Part shown: positions 7,971-25,136 of the stretch, piece by piece
Layout of the letters: each line of letters starts with the position of its first letter
How positions within the stretch are numbered: the stretch's first letter is position 1
From: a virus
Strand: one strand, 5' to 3'
DNA: 25,464 nucleotides
IMG/VR virus record: IMGVR_UViG_3300018424_000229
Location: 1-25,464 of that record
Program-made: the position numbers and the translations under genes
Notes under the pieces: generated by a model
Databases searched by the model: none
The model's input: only the letters and a program-made list of their open reading frames with translations
What the model was told of the DNA's origin: nothing

Positions 7971-8966
7971 ATGGCATTTGAGAATCCAACAGCTACAGTT
8001 GCAGCACAAATGGGAGCCCACGGCGGGCCAGCTCGTACTAACTATTTTGCTGTTACCTTTTCAGGTCCATCTACAATTACACCTGACAATGCTTTTGTTA
8101 ATGCACTATGCGAATCTGTTCAACTTCCTGGTCGTTCAATTTCTACATTTGAACATGGTACCACTCGTCAAGCTACAAAGCGTCCATATAGCTTTATTAA
8201 TGACGATGTAACTCTTACATTTATTGTTACAAATGATTTCTATATTAAGAATCTTTGGGACCAATGGATGCGTGCAGTTGTAGACGATAGAACCGGTAAA
8301 GTTCAATATAAGTCTACATATGCACATGATGTTACAATATCGGTATTAGACATGAATGCAAACCAAGTGTATGAGACAAACTTAGAAAATGCATTTCCAA
8401 TTAATATTTCTGCAATTGAATTATCTAATGCTGCAGAAAACGAATTAATGAAAATGACAGTGACTTTAACATATGATAATTTTACAACTAAAACAAAAGA
8501 CTTTGGATTCGTAACTTCTGTATTTGATTTCAACACTGCATTGTCTATTCCATCTCCAGGATTATCTTCGATTCCATTTAATCCATTTGGTGATATACCG
8601 AATCAAATTCAGTTTACAAGTCTAAGTGATTTGAAAGATGCTCTACGTGGAACATTAGATGGAGCACTTGATCAGATTAAGAATTCTATCACTGGTGGTA
8701 TTCGTGAGACTATTACTTCAGTTACTCGTCCAATTACAAATGCTATTAATTCTGTTTCAAACCAGATCTTTGGCGGATTTAATCAAGTTGTAGGTACAAT
8801 CACTGGTGGTATTACCGGTGTAATAAATAACATTAGCACAGGTATTTCAAGTGCAATTGGAAACGTGATTAATACTCCAATTGCTCAAGTAACTGGAGCT
8901 ATTAACAGTGGAATATCTGGTATTACTAATAGAATTTCGTCCGGATTAAAAGGACTCTTTGGATAA
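7971..8966 (+). CDS. 54: Baseplate tail-tube initiator gp54-like
   Basis: The product has 331 residues. Residues about 20-185 show the T4 tail-tube fold (gp19/gp54 family): NALCESVQLPGRSISTFEH, a YSFINDDVTLTFIVTNDFY strand pair, a WDQWMRAVVDDRTGKVQY helix and ENAFPINISAIELSN. The remaining 140 residues form an amphipathic, Gly/Ile/Thr-rich tail (repeated ITGGI, INSVSN and ISSAIG patterns). The length matches T4 gp54 (320 residues) rather than gp19 (163), so I call it gp54, which sits on gp48 and nucleates the tube. A tube protein (gp19) with an unusual tail is the alternative. Confidence 0.72.
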   Translation: MAFENPTATVAAQMGAHGGPARTNYFAVTFSGPSTITPDNAFVNALCESVQLPGRSISTFEHGTTRQATKRPYSFINDDVTLTFIVTNDFYIKNLWDQWMRAVVDDRTGKVQYKSTYAHDVTISVLDMNANQVYETNLENAFPINISAIELSNAAENELMKMTVTLTYDNFTTKTKDFGFVTSVFDFNTALSIPSPGLSSIPFNPFGDIPNQIQFTSLSDLKDALRGTLDGALDQIKNSITGGIRETITSVTRPITNAINSVSNQIFGGFNQVVGTITGGITGVINNISTGISSAIGNVINTPIAQVTGAINSGISGITNRISSGLKGLFG

Positions 8967-8994: not shown

Positions 8995-9702
8995 ATGGCT
9001 TTACCTAGAATTGACTCGCCAAAATATGAACTAACGGTTCCAAGCACAGGTGAAACAGTTGAATACAGACCATATTTAGTTAAGGAAGAAAAGATCCTTA
9101 TGCTAGCTATGGAATCAAAAGATCAGAATCAAATGATTCGAGCTCTACGTGATGTAATTGCTGGTTGTACAGATGGAAAAGTACAAGTAGATAAACTAGC
9201 AATGTTTGATTTAGAATATGTTTTTCTAAAAATTAGAGCTAAATCAGTTGGTGAAACATCTAAGATCGGTGTTAAATGCACTGATTGTGATACTAAAAAC
9301 GAATTTGAAATTAACCTTGATGAGGTACAAGTTCAAGGGGAAGTAAAGAAAGAAGCTAAAGTAGCATTAACAGATAGTGTTGGTGTAGTACTACGTTACC
9401 CTACTGTGAAAGGTATTCAGAGACAGTTGGGTAAAGGCAAAGGGAATGACGCTGAAGTAAGTATGGCAGCTGTTGCAAGTGCAATTGAGTCTATTTACGA
9501 TGCTGAAAATGTTTATAGTGCAGAAGATGAAACTTCTGAAAGTTTAATTGGATTCTTAGATTCATTAACTTCTCAGCAGTTCAAAAAGATTTCTGAATAC
9601 TTTGAAGACATGCCTCGATTGAGACATGAAATAAATTATAAGTGTAAGAGTTGTGGAGTAGAGAATAAACAGACATTGGAGGGTCTGACAAATTTTTTCT
9701 AA
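8995..9702 (+). CDS. 26: Baseplate hub assembly protein gp26 (T4_baseplate family)
   Basis: The product has 235 residues. The N-terminus (ALPRIDSPKYELTVPSTGE, YRPYLVKEEKILMLAMES) is typical of the gp26 family. Two CxxC pairs, C95/C98 (KCTDCDT) and C217/C220 (KCKSCGV), look like a zinc ribbon. In T4, gp26 is needed for hub assembly. The gene has a strong SD (TAGGAG). It ends in the bases AAATTTTTTCTAA, and an open -1 frame continues past the stop to 9887, directly before the tape measure gene. This arrangement resembles the frameshifted tail-assembly chaperones of other tailed phages. See the separate entries on the slippery site and extension. Confidence 0.85.
   Translation: MALPRIDSPKYELTVPSTGETVEYRPYLVKEEKILMLAMESKDQNQMIRALRDVIAGCTDGKVQVDKLAMFDLEYVFLKIRAKSVGETSKIGVKCTDCDTKNEFEINLDEVQVQGEVKKEAKVALTDSVGVVLRYPTVKGIQRQLGKGKGNDAEVSMAAVASAIESIYDAENVYSAEDETSESLIGFLDSLTSQQFKKISEYFEDMPRLRHEINYKCKSCGVENKQTLEGLTNFF
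9690..9699 (+). promoter_or_regulatory. Candidate -1 ribosomal frameshift (slippery) site
   Basis: The bases AAATTTTTTC contain two overlapping heptamers of the X XXY YYZ form in the gp26 frame, A AAT TTT (9690-9696) and T TTT TTC (9693-9699). Both allow re-pairing of the P- and A-site tRNAs after a -1 shift. They lie within one to four bases of the gp26 stop (9700-9702). The -1 frame is open from 9669 to the stop at 9885-9887. Confidence 0.6.
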
Positions 9703-9887
9703 TAGCTCTTTCCCATGAGTCGTTAGAGAACTATTATAAGACCAACTTTGCGTTAATGCAACACCATAAATATTCTCTAACGGAGCTCGATGAGATGATG
9801 CCGTGGGAAAGAGAGATTTATGTTTTATTATTGAGTGAGTATATTAAAGAAGAAAACGAACGAATTAAAAACCAGAAACGTGGATAA
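9696..9887 (+). CDS. -1 frame extension of gp26 (tail-assembly-chaperone-like, gp51 position)
   Basis: In the -1 frame the sequence reads on from gp26 as FLIALSHESLENYYKTNF, then ALMQHHKYSLTELDEMMPWE, and ends in a charged helix SEYIKEENERIKNQKRG. It looks like genuine protein: it has a conserved-looking MPWEREIYV motif and an amphipathic C-terminus, and I recall similar segments between gp26 and gp29 in marine T4-like phages. The frame opens only at 9669 (after a TAA at 9666-9668). No ATG or GTG occurs before the internal ATG at residue ALM, which would remove the first third. Expression therefore most simply requires a -1 shift from gp26, giving a fused product of about 297 residues. The next gene is the tape measure, seven bases on. 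Confidence 0.65.
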   Translation, partial: FLIALSHESLENYYKTNFALMQHHKYSLTELDEMMPWEREIYVLLLSEYIKEENERIKNQKRG

Positions 9888-9893
9888 ACCATA

Positions 9894-12593
9894 ATGGCAG
9901 AAGATCAAATTGGCCCAAGCTTAGACGAGTTAACGGCTACCATTACTGAGCAAAATAAAGCTCTAAAAAATATGGAATCTCTTGGAAAGCTTGATACAAC
10001 TATCAAAGCTATGGAAAAGAGTAATACCGAAAATTCTGCCGCTTTGCGAGAACAGTTTAATTCTATTCAAACAGCATTACAAACGGCTGAAAATGACGAG
10101 CAGTTAGAATTAGCTCGCGAGCAATTGGAAGCATTAGAAGGTTTAGCTGGTACCGAAGAAGAAAATAGAGAATCTGCCAAACGTCAAGAAGAAGCGAATG
10201 AACTACTAAGTAAAATGGTTTCCGGTATTGATGGATTAGCCGATTCTTATGATAAGATGCTTGATAACTTAAAGCCATCAGCAGGTTTATTTGCTACATT
10301 AGGTGGTTTGGCATTATTGTTTACAGATCCAGAAACTCTATTTGCTGGAGTTCGAGCTGCTATTGATGGTGTATTTGCTATTGTTGATTCTATTAAAATG
10401 TTCTTAGATGGAGACTTTAGTGAAGGACTAGCTCTACTTGGAGATAATATTGGAGCAGTAGCTGCAATTATTGGTACTGTTGCTGTACTATTTGGTGGAC
10501 GTATTATTCGTCTTGTATCTTTAATGGTAAAGGGTGTACAAGGGATTATCAAAGGTGTTACTAAAGTTGGTGGATTCATAGCGCGTCTTGGCGGGCGTTT
10601 CGGTGGTTTGGCTAAAATATTTGGAAGACTTTTCTTACCATTTACGATAATCACCGGAGCAATCGGCACCATTCAAGGATTCATTGATGGTTTCAAAAAA
10701 GGAGGAATCATTGGTGGTATTGAAGGAGGTGTCAAAGGATTATTTAATACCTTAGTTGCTTGGCCATTAGACTTATTAAAAGATGGAGTTGCTTGGATTC
10801 TTGGTAAGTTTGGATTTGAAGACGCTAAGGCTACATTAGAAGCGTTTTCATTCTCTAATCTAATTAATAATTTAATTACCAGTGTATTTAATATGGTAAA
10901 AGGCGCAGTTAAATGGGTTGGAGAATTATTTACAGATCCAGTTGCAGCATTAGATAAATTGTCAATGGCTCTTATTGGTCCTGATGGAATCCTAGGAGTA
11001 ATTACTGCTCCAATTGATAAAGCAATCAATTGGGTAATGGGTTTGTTTAAACTAGGAGATCCCAGCAGACCATTCTCTTTATATGATACGCTCTATGATC
11101 CAATTGATAAAACTATTACGTGGGTCAAAGGTTTATTCACAGATCCTGTCGCGGCATTACAAAAAGCATGGAATGGCTTAGTTGGTGAAGGTGGATTAAT
11201 TGATATAATCTATTCTCCAATTGATAAAGCAATTGCTTGGATTCAAGGGCTATTCAATTGGGGAAATCCAGAAGAACCATTCAAACTTTCCACAGTAGTT
11301 AAAGATGCTTTCAAACTTGCAAAGGATTGGATTGTAGGTCTATTCACTTGGGGATCAGAAGCTGGTAGCGGTGAAGATGGATCTTGGTCACTATCAACAT
11401 TTATTCCAAACGCTTTTGCAGATGTAAAAACTTGGATAGTTGATAAATTTACTTTTGCTTCTGATATGGCAACAGAAGGCTGGACTAACCTAAAAGATTT
11501 TGCTCTTGGTAAATTTACCGAAGCTAAAGATTGGTTTATTAGTAAGCTTACATTTGCTTATGATATGGCAACTGAAGGATGGACTAACCTAAAAGATTTC
11601 GTGTCAGGTTTATGGACATCAGTAAAAACTTGGATTACTGATAAATTAACTTGGGCTTCAGATCTTACGACTGAAGGATGGACTAACCTAAAAGATTTTG
11701 TATCTACCAAATTTACCGAAGCTAAAGATTGGTTTATTGGTAAGCTTACATTTGCTTCAAATCTTGCTACTGAAGGTTGGACTAGTTTAAGTGCATTTGT
11801 TTCAGGTAAATGGAATGAAGTTCATACTTGGATTACAGGATTATTCGACTGGGCAAGTGATGGTCTATCAGAAGGATGGACTAACCTTACTGATTTTGTT
11901 TCAGGTAAATGGACCGCGACGAAAAAGTGGTTTACTGATATGTTTAGCTGGTCTTCGAATGAAGATGATAAAGGTGTAGTCCAACAACTATTTGATTCTA
12001 CTATTGAAAAGATAACTTCATTCTTTACAGGTCTATTTGACTTTTTGCCATCAATTTCTGAAATTAAAGAATCTTTACAAGGAATGCTTCCATCTTGGTT
12101 ACAACCAGATTCTGTTTCAGACATGGCAAGTGAACTTGAGTCAGAAGGTGGAGTTACAAGAGAAGAAGTATTAGCAGCTACTACTGATGAAGCAAGAGCA
12201 GCTCTAGCTGCAAGAGCAGATGATAACTCTTGGACTTATGGCTATAATGAAGCTATGAGAGCTATTGAAGCTATCCAAGCTGCAGAATTAAACCGTGGCG
12301 GAATTGTTAAAGCACCAGAAACTGGCGGTCTTGCGGTTATGCATGGCGCAGAAATTGTTGCACCATTGGATTCACCACAAGGTAAAGTTCTAATGGCCAT
12401 TAATGATTTGATGAATGCTAAAGCCGCAACCGGAACTGGTGAATATGGATCTCCATCTGCAGCTGCTATTGTTATGGGTGGTAATACTAATAAGTCAAAC
12501 ACAAACAACGTGAATACAACTAACTATACCATCCAGCAGGGAGTTACCCCAGACGACTTCCTCAAACGAGATTTTATAAATTTCTCATACTAA
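9894..12593 (+). CDS. 29: Tail tape measure protein gp29-like
   Basis: The product has 899 residues. Residues 1-125 are a charged coiled-coil region (ITEQNKALKNMESLGKL and Glu/Gln-rich heptads). Residues about 130-280 contain long hydrophobic Gly-rich helices (FATLGGLALLF, VAAIIGTVAVLFGG). The middle is built of Trp-rich helical repeats, and the C-terminus ends in an Asn/Thr segment and DDFLKRDFINFSY. This is the usual make-up of tape measure proteins, which sit in the tail tube, set its length and are ejected into the host envelope. T4 gp29 is 590 residues, so this tail should be longer. Five tandem 33-residue repeats lie at 11451-11945. The gene ends at a bidirectional terminator. Confidence 0.85.
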   Translation: MAEDQIGPSLDELTATITEQNKALKNMESLGKLDTTIKAMEKSNTENSAALREQFNSIQTALQTAENDEQLELAREQLEALEGLAGTEEENRESAKRQEEANELLSKMVSGIDGLADSYDKMLDNLKPSAGLFATLGGLALLFTDPETLFAGVRAAIDGVFAIVDSIKMFLDGDFSEGLALLGDNIGAVAAIIGTVAVLFGGRIIRLVSLMVKGVQGIIKGVTKVGGFIARLGGRFGGLAKIFGRLFLPFTIITGAIGTIQGFIDGFKKGGIIGGIEGGVKGLFNTLVAWPLDLLKDGVAWILGKFGFEDAKATLEAFSFSNLINNLITSVFNMVKGAVKWVGELFTDPVAALDKLSMALIGPDGILGVITAPIDKAINWVMGLFKLGDPSRPFSLYDTLYDPIDKTITWVKGLFTDPVAALQKAWNGLVGEGGLIDIIYSPIDKAIAWIQGLFNWGNPEEPFKLSTVVKDAFKLAKDWIVGLFTWGSEAGSGEDGSWSLSTFIPNAFADVKTWIVDKFTFASDMATEGWTNLKDFALGKFTEAKDWFISKLTFAYDMATEGWTNLKDFVSGLWTSVKTWITDKLTWASDLTTEGWTNLKDFVSTKFTEAKDWFIGKLTFASNLATEGWTSLSAFVSGKWNEVHTWITGLFDWASDGLSEGWTNLTDFVSGKWTATKKWFTDMFSWSSNEDDKGVVQQLFDSTIEKITSFFTGLFDFLPSISEIKESLQGMLPSWLQPDSVSDMASELESEGGVTREEVLAATTDEARAALAARADDNSWTYGYNEAMRAIEAIQAAELNRGGIVKAPETGGLAVMHGAEIVAPLDSPQGKVLMAINDLMNAKAATGTGEYGSPSAAAIVMGGNTNKSNTNNVNTTNYTIQQGVTPDDFLKRDFINFSY
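11451..11945 (+). repeat. Five tandem 99-bp (33-residue) repeats inside the tape measure gene
   Basis: Units start at 11451, 11550, 11649, 11748 and 11847. Each encodes a variant of TFASDMATEGWTNLKDF followed by a K-W/F-T-x-x-K-x-W-hydrophobic helix end. The invariant core is EGWT(N/S)L. Repeats of this period are a known way for tape measure genes to gain or lose tail length in steps. Confidence 0.9.
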
Positions 12594-23945: not shown

Positions 23946-25136
23946 ATGTCTAGATTCATCTCGACGTTTGTTGTTTTTCTTGCAATGTTATCTGTCTCAT
24001 CCCACGCACAAGTTGCTAACGACGCCGACGGAAATTTTGATTCAACAAGCTATGTGGAAACTGATAATACCACTACTTCAACTACGACTAGTGATATTAC
24101 TACAGATAACACTAATACCAATAACACTACGATAGATTCGACTAGTACTAGTACGACAACTAATACTAATACGAACAACACTACTATTAATAGTACGAAT
24201 ACCAATACAAATAACAATACAAATAATACTACCATAGACTCTACCAGTAGTAATACTAATGTTAACACTAACACAAATAATACTACAATAGATTCTACTA
24301 CAACTAGTACTAACACAAACAATAATACCAATAACACCACTATTAATAGTACTACAGATAATACTAATACGAACAACAATACCAATAACACTACGATTAA
24401 TAGTACAACTACAAACACAAATAATAATGTTTTAAGTGGTGGTACAAATAATACGAACACAAATACCAATACTAATACTAATAATACCACTATCGATCAA
24501 ACTACTAATTCAACCATTGATCAAAACGTAAATCAAACAACTAATTCTACTATTAATCAAAACGTAAATAGTAATAGTAATATTACTTCAAACAACACAA
24601 ACACTAACATTAACAATACAACAAGCAATAACACCAATACAAACACTAATAATACTACGGTCAATTCAACTGCAAATAATACAAACAATAACAATAATGT
24701 TAACACAAATAATAGCAATATTGTACAAGAAGTAATTTCTCCTCCACCAAGCGCAATAGCTCCTACAATTATGGGTGGTGGTAATGATACATGTACTGTT
24801 ACATATTCTGCAGCTGTTCAAACTCAAATACTTGGTGCTTCTGGTGGTGGACATGTTCGTGATTTAAATTGTGAACGTTTAAAAAATGCTAAAACCCTAT
24901 ACAATATGGGAATGAAAGTTGCTGCTGTTTCTTTAATGTGCCAAGAGCCAACTGTGTTTAAGGCAATGGAAATGGCTGGTACTCCTTGTCCATTTAAAGG
25001 AGAAATTGGAGCTACTGCTCAAGCACTATGGGACAATAGCCCAGAGGATTTACCTGTAAAGGGACATCAACCAAATGAAACAACTAATCTACTTCTTGGT
25101 AGCGGTTTGCTTCTTTTGCTTCTCGGCATTCTCTAG
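23946..25136 (+). CDS. Exported Asn/Thr-rich repeat protein
   Basis: The product has 396 residues. Residues 1-21 are a signal peptide (FISTFVVFLAMLSVSSHA). Residues about 40-258 are almost only Asn, Thr, Ser and Ile, with the core NNTTI(D/N)ST at residues 59, 77, 93, 111, 129, 147 and 179, mostly 18 apart. A compact domain follows (about 265-365) with PPPSAIAPTIMGGG, the segment SGGGHVRDLNCERLKNAKTL and a second AMEMAGTPCPF part, carrying Cys 283, 309, 332 and 348. It ends in a hydrophobic tail (LLLGSGLLLLLLGIL). I recall similar C-terminal domains in marine T4-like phages but no function. A beta-solenoid or amyloid-like surface filament is a reasonable guess. SD CGGAGAAACTCG. Confidence 0.78.
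   Translation: MSRFISTFVVFLAMLSVSSHAQVANDADGNFDSTSYVETDNTTTSTTTSDITTDNTNTNNTTIDSTSTSTTTNTNTNNTTINSTNTNTNNNTNNTTIDSTSSNTNVNTNTNNTTIDSTTTSTNTNNNTNNTTINSTTDNTNTNNNTNNTTINSTTTNTNNNVLSGGTNNTNTNTNTNTNNTTIDQTTNSTIDQNVNQTTNSTINQNVNSNSNITSNNTNTNINNTTSNNTNTNTNNTTVNSTANNTNNNNNVNTNNSNIVQEVISPPPSAIAPTIMGGGNDTCTVTYSAAVQTQILGASGGGHVRDLNCERLKNAKTLYNMGMKVAAVSLMCQEPTVFKAMEMAGTPCPFKGEIGATAQALWDNSPEDLPVKGHQPNETTNLLLGSGLLLLLLGIL
24063..24720 (+). repeat. Asn/Thr coding repeat with 54-bp period and mixed codons
   Basis: Six units of about 54 bp encode the NNTTI core and Asn/Thr linkers, followed by looser repeats and two 12-residue STI(D/N)QNVN units. All four Thr codons and both Asn codons are used in turn, so the DNA copies are much less alike than the protein copies. 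Confidence 0.75.

Follow-up and report, generated by a model that had tools for sequence, protein, structure and literature searches.

The window analysed here, a 25,464-nucleotide stretch of viral DNA (IMG/VR record IMGVR_UViG_3300018424_000229, positions 1 to 25,464), derives from an uncultured marine-type T4-like phage that appears to make a tail assembly chaperone in both a short and a long form. Very probably, -1 programmed ribosomal frameshifting at the end of gp26 yields tail chaperones of the G/GT type from gp26 and gp51. Frameshifts of this type are well known in long-tailed phages. A first, sequence-only reading of the window had proposed such a layout at gp26, and the proposal is supported by conservation of the slippery heptamer, by the identity of the -1 frame product as gp51 and by homology to T4 gp51. 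The junction would provide a clean recoding site with very wide conservation among abundant marine phages.

Gp26 belongs to the T4_baseplate family (Pfam PF12322, E 5e-67; PHROG 150, E 2e-70). Its final codons are ACA AAT TTT TTC TAA, and the stop directly follows two overlapping heptamers, A AAT TTT and T TTT TTC, both of which are present in the correct phase, as had been noticed in the sequence alone. In the -1 frame, no stop interrupts 9669-9887 until the final codon (72 amino acids plus stop). It had been described as lacking an early ATG or GTG, and its first ATG, GTG or TTG is indeed an ATG at 9756-9758, which is located within the conserved part. The next gene had been taken for the tape measure, and the frame at this location matches tape-measure PHROGs (E ~1e-17). 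A tape measure gene directly 3' of the gp26/gp51 locus gives this locus the position of G/GT-type chaperone genes. The main features of the window are as follows:

8995-9702, + strand: gp26, T4_baseplate family, predicted short form of the tail assembly chaperone, 235 amino acids (PF12322, PHROG 150, AlphaFold2 model)
9678-9683, + strand: SD-like GGAGGG, 9 nt 5' of the heptamer, probable slippage stimulator
9690-9696, + strand: heptamer A AAT TTT, in phase, incidental
9693-9699, + strand: slippery heptamer T TTT TTC, in the phase of gp26, conserved in relatives
9699-9887, + strand: -1 frame extension with the gp51 domain (PHROG 634), 62 amino acids after slippage, stop at 9885-9887
9700-9702, + strand: zero-frame stop of gp26, TAA
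9721-9782, + strand: possible long-range stem, CGTTAGAGAA (9721-9730) with TTCTCTAACG (9773-9782), z -1.8
9894-12593, + strand: tape measure protein, expected client of the chaperone (PHROG 58, 167, 1535 and 1272, E 6e-17 to 2e-15)

No second gp26-like protein was found among the eight window proteins scanned against Pfam and PHROG. Rfam and tRNA searches of the window gave no match, and a search of NCBIfam returned nothing useful. Inside the tape measure gene, positions 11424-11899 consist of tandem repeats with units of 99/198 bases (33/66 amino acids, 'TEGWTNLKDFV'). Upstream of gp26, a tail-tube-like protein of the gp19 family (7971-8966) carries an extra C-terminal part of ~120 residues that is rich in I, G, N and S and weakly matches tape-measure PHROGs. 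A 396-amino acid open reading frame at 23946-25136 has a signal-peptide-like start, ~200 residues of repeats rich in Asn and Thr, and a hydrophobic C-terminus.

The -1 frame had been judged protein-like. It is open, and its product is gp51, with residues 9-71 matching PHROG 634, 'baseplate hub assembly catalyst' (E 1.4e-30). The same product shows similarity to the final 55 positions of the gp26 family, PHROG 150, and weak similarity to the C-terminus of a 244-amino acid 'baseplate protein' family. Such matches would be expected if both parts were fused in some relatives. A tblastn search finds the gp51 extension in 670 phage records, mostly from cyanophages. In the first set of loci gathered, the extension is detectable in 83 sequences, namely 82 loci plus the window, and every one of them has it in the -1 frame. 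Immediately beyond the junction the peptide is conserved, reading ALSH[DE]SL in most lineages, and nucleotide changes in the post-junction region fall mostly at third positions. The frame is open in all relatives and ends 149-215 nt beyond the gp26 stop in the set clustered at 70% identity.

Relatives were drawn from IMG/VR and GenBank. With the T4 group left aside, 251 gp26 loci were usable, and these form 120 clusters at 90% protein identity. Slippery bases and the -1 frame are both kept at their gp26 junctions. An in-phase T TTT TTN occurs near the end of gp26 in 116 of the 120 clusters (96 TTTTTTC, 19 TTTTTTT and 1 TTTTTTG). The heptamer is fixed in position among these sequences, but the zero-frame stop shifts, the heptamer preceding it by 7, 10, 13, 16 or 31 nt. 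At the two loci with the 31-nt distance (L176 and L202), the short form gains a tail of ~8 residues and the -1 extension is unchanged. Four clusters are exceptions: three belong to Ackermannviridae, and the fourth is Vibrio phage K367 g2. All four retain an in-frame NNT TTY, which constitutes a T_TTY slippery tetramer. These loci (L260, L262, L265 and L267) are without T6, and in three of the four an ATG overlaps the stop (TAATG), with ATT in BSP101. Reinitiation, or a weaker form of slippage, may operate there.

As the protein conserves Phe-Phe, codon choice was tested as well. TTT encodes the first Phe of the junction without exception, and the preceding codon always ends in T. Measured against own-gene usage, with the 116 clusters taken as independent, these choices have log10 P values of ~ -27 and -19. 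The corresponding values are ~ -18 and -13 in the 67 of 71 clusters (70% identity) that have the heptamer. Kinship among the phages makes all of these P values overstated, and loci were scored on having the heptamer. Among 64 further Phe-Phe pairs within the gp26 sequences of representatives, only 3 are written as T TTT TTN. By these sequence comparisons, T TTT TTN at the junction is not a product of chance. A AAT TTT was considered as a working site and rejected, being in phase in only 12 of the 116. The suggestion that both heptamers are slippery consequently stands for T TTT TTC and falls for the other, which is incidental; the pattern of conservation points to T TTT TTC, rather than A AAT TTT, as the working heptamer.

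Pairing of the GGAGGG upstream of the heptamer to the anti-SD sequence is calculated at -9.8 kcal/mol in the window. The SD-like site of relatives ends 7-9 nt before the heptamer and has a mean of -5.5 kcal/mol at its best position, whereas random 8-mers taken from these genes score ~0. Part of this signal is due to a conserved [EKR]-G-L peptide. The observed mean of -5.71 nevertheless beats 100 of 100 synonymous recodings (-4.88, sd 0.16). Spacing between the SD-like site and the heptamer is kept even where the stop moves, and because this distance is constant when the stop is elsewhere, the site serves the heptamer and not a start codon.

Folding 3' of the heptamer is, on average, stronger than expected from synonymous recoding (mean z -1.41 versus -0.41 in control windows). 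Strong hairpins are present within ~60 nt 3' of the heptamer at seven loci: L144, L266 (S-SKS1), L270 (ACG-2014f), L013, L109, L216 and L234. Their positions differ by lineage, and they are stabler than synonymous recoding gives. In the window there is no clear local hairpin adjoining the heptamer (z -0.26; not better than shuffled), and RNAalifold detects no covarying pair among sequences of its clade. The idea that this clade conserves a stimulatory structure was therefore rejected. The 10-bp long-range stem at 9721-9782 is a possible, putative element. In 10 close relatives 75% of its cells are paired, with no compensatory change among them.

As a rival to frameshifting, gp51 could be a separate small protein with its own start, made either from an internal ATG or by ribosomes that reinitiate once they have passed the gp26 stop. 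GenBank does annotate gp51 as a separate gene with starts at varied places, yet 50 of the 120 clusters, the window included, lack any ATG, GTG or TTG in the -1 frame between -31 and +45, and the window has none before 9756. Where one of these codons is close to the junction (126 of 264 loci), independent translation of gp51 is possible, and in some relatives an ATG or GTG even overlaps the stop, for example, TAATG in R11Z and VAP7 or TGATG in Mendera. However, the peptide 5' of the first start is conserved, and a downstream start would discard it. The SD-like site tracks the heptamer, so that a start at +2 would sit 18-21 nt away. The sequence-only reading had itself named a second frame with its own SD and start codon as the rival to look for in relatives; these have no conserved start and no correctly spaced SD for this frame. 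Since T4 gp51 also corresponds to the full-length fusion (see below), a separately initiated gp51 is improbable.

The same two protein parts would result if RNA polymerase, rather than the ribosome, slipped on the T run and added one extra U. Runs of 7 or 8 Ts occur in 19 of 116 relatives, but the other 97 have exactly 6. Six Ts is short for slippage by RNA polymerase. Moreover, an SD-like site at fixed spacing and downstream hairpins are sensible only for a ribosome, and we consider a transcriptional origin of the fusion very improbable. Finally, a homopolymer at the junction is a classic site of error, and a single gene might appear split because of a sequencing or assembly mistake, or the two frames might overlap by chance. 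The probability of this is negligible. Comparative data already contradict it, in that the same frame relation and T run are found in isolate genomes and across ~250 loci in which the zero-frame stop varies.

Ribosomal frameshifting would also account for the inconsistent annotation of gp51 starts. The annotated starts differ widely among S-SM1, S-RSM4, Melnitz, P-HM2 and others in GenBank, and an ATG or GTG just 3' of the stop, where relatives have one, has been taken by annotators as the gp51 start. In P-HM2 (L268) and S-RSM4 (L083), gp51 is annotated as a tiny gene, 93 bases long in P-HM2, that starts deep in the conserved domain. Such annotations look artefactual, as would follow from a missed frameshift.

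The best independent evidence that the predicted fusion is a real functional unit comes from profile alignment to T4 gp51. In T4, gene 26 (208 amino acids) and gene 51 (249 amino acids) are divergently oriented. Residues 6-249 of T4 gp51 align collinearly, across the junction, with the predicted gp26-gp51 fusion (profile comparison, prob 99.6, E 2e-24). The alignment of T4 gp26 is confined to the short form (profile comparison with Straboviridae gp26, E 7e-29), and the two T4 proteins are paralogues of each other (profile comparison, E 7e-21). Since T4 gp51 resembles the fusion and T4 gp26 the short form, T4 has a separate gene for each chaperone form, and the two genes are paralogous. Their products are both counted among the hub assembly chaperones, and gp51 is reportedly missing from the finished particle (PMC3004832). 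The likeness between the two systems thus extends over the whole short and the whole fused form. The difference lies in genetic organization, with separate divergent genes in T4 and, as predicted here, one gene plus a -1 shift for both forms.

On balance, we favor a model in which the junction in Kyanoviridae and other non-Straboviridae T4-like phages is a three-part, dnaX-like cassette in which an SD-like stimulator precedes T TTT TTN and hairpins that differ by lineage follow it. Frameshifting within one gene would be ancestral, and the two genes of T4 would be a derived duplication that froze each form. If this is correct, the 'gp51' annotated in several hundred marine phage genomes is not a separate gene. 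On the frameshift reading itself, one assembly pair has found two solutions: frameshifting in the marine relatives and a pair of paralogous genes in T4.

Structure prediction is consistent with a chaperone role for gp26. An AlphaFold2 model built from 51 sequences, drawn from the window and IMG/VR loci only, has a pLDDT of 92.8. Residues 1-90 of the model superpose on 3fgx (Z 8.1) and on the HK97 tail assembly chaperone, 2ob9 (Z 7.0; 84 residues, 4.1 A), and the next row in the VIA-align results scores 3.3. Foldseek gives no significant PDB match for the model (E 3.7), and a gp26 sequence search against the PDB gives no credible match. The chaperone-like fold predicted for the N-terminus is supportive only. 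Compared with 2ob9 and 3fgx, gp26 has ~145 more residues beyond the matched region, including CxxC pairs and a beta-rich part.

In the mechanism proposed here, most ribosomes translating gp26 would end at 9700-9702 and release the 235-amino acid short chaperone, equivalent to G. A minority would slip back one base at T TTT TTC with TTT in the P site and TTC in the A site, probably aided by pairing of GGAGGG with 16S rRNA. Slipped ribosomes would then read the -1 frame (GLTNFF followed by LIALSHESLENYY) to produce a 297-amino acid gp26-gp51 fusion equivalent to GT. The predicted junction-spanning peptide of this fusion is GLTNFFLIALSHE, and the junction would read NFFLIALSHE. If lambda G/GT is a guide, the gp26 part common to both forms may bind and coat the tape measure, and the gp51 part may recruit components of the tail tube or hub. 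We infer the occurrence of slippage in cells and its rate, as well as these roles of the two parts.

A 2016 review describes G-T frameshifting as conserved in long-tailed phages 'except T4' (PMC5009743). According to papers that cite their work, Vladimirov, Gautam and Davidson (2022, Virology 566:9-15) identified tail chaperones of T4-like phages and reported poly-T slippage; to this extent the core point made here is already in print. The sequence-only reading had stated that the layout is not a standard annotation for T4-like gp26. This is accurate for GenBank, where no relative among those examined carries a joined-gene annotation of both frames, but the tail chaperones of T4-like phages had, as citing papers report, already been identified in the 2022 paper. 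A literature search for gp26/gp51 frameshifting returned no paper on this locus, and its matches were mostly phages sharing gp numbers. Two details may be new, namely the SD-like stimulator and the hairpins that differ by lineage. They offer a natural series for studying how frameshift rates are tuned.

Several characterized systems resemble this junction in part. The lambda G/GT genes likewise encode a short and a -1 frameshifted long form 5' of the tape measure (Xu et al. 2004; PMC5009743). Unlike lambda, the phages studied here use the heptamer T TTT TTN and conserve an SD-like stimulator upstream; the likeness is one of layout. The dnaX gene of E. coli also has an SD-like element 5' of its slippery heptamer, and many relatives here have a 3' hairpin as well. 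The dnaX slippery sequence is A AAA AAG, and frameshifting there makes the shorter product. At gp26, by contrast, the shifted product would be the longer one, and no hairpin is evident in the window. A poly-T slippery site is likewise present in the Vandenendeviridae/Andersonviridae chaperone locus represented by phage Adele (GTTTTT in Adele), where the -1 extension is routinely annotated as a separate hypothetical gene (PMC12846349). Adele belongs to another phage lineage, and the resemblance to its locus is one of layout.
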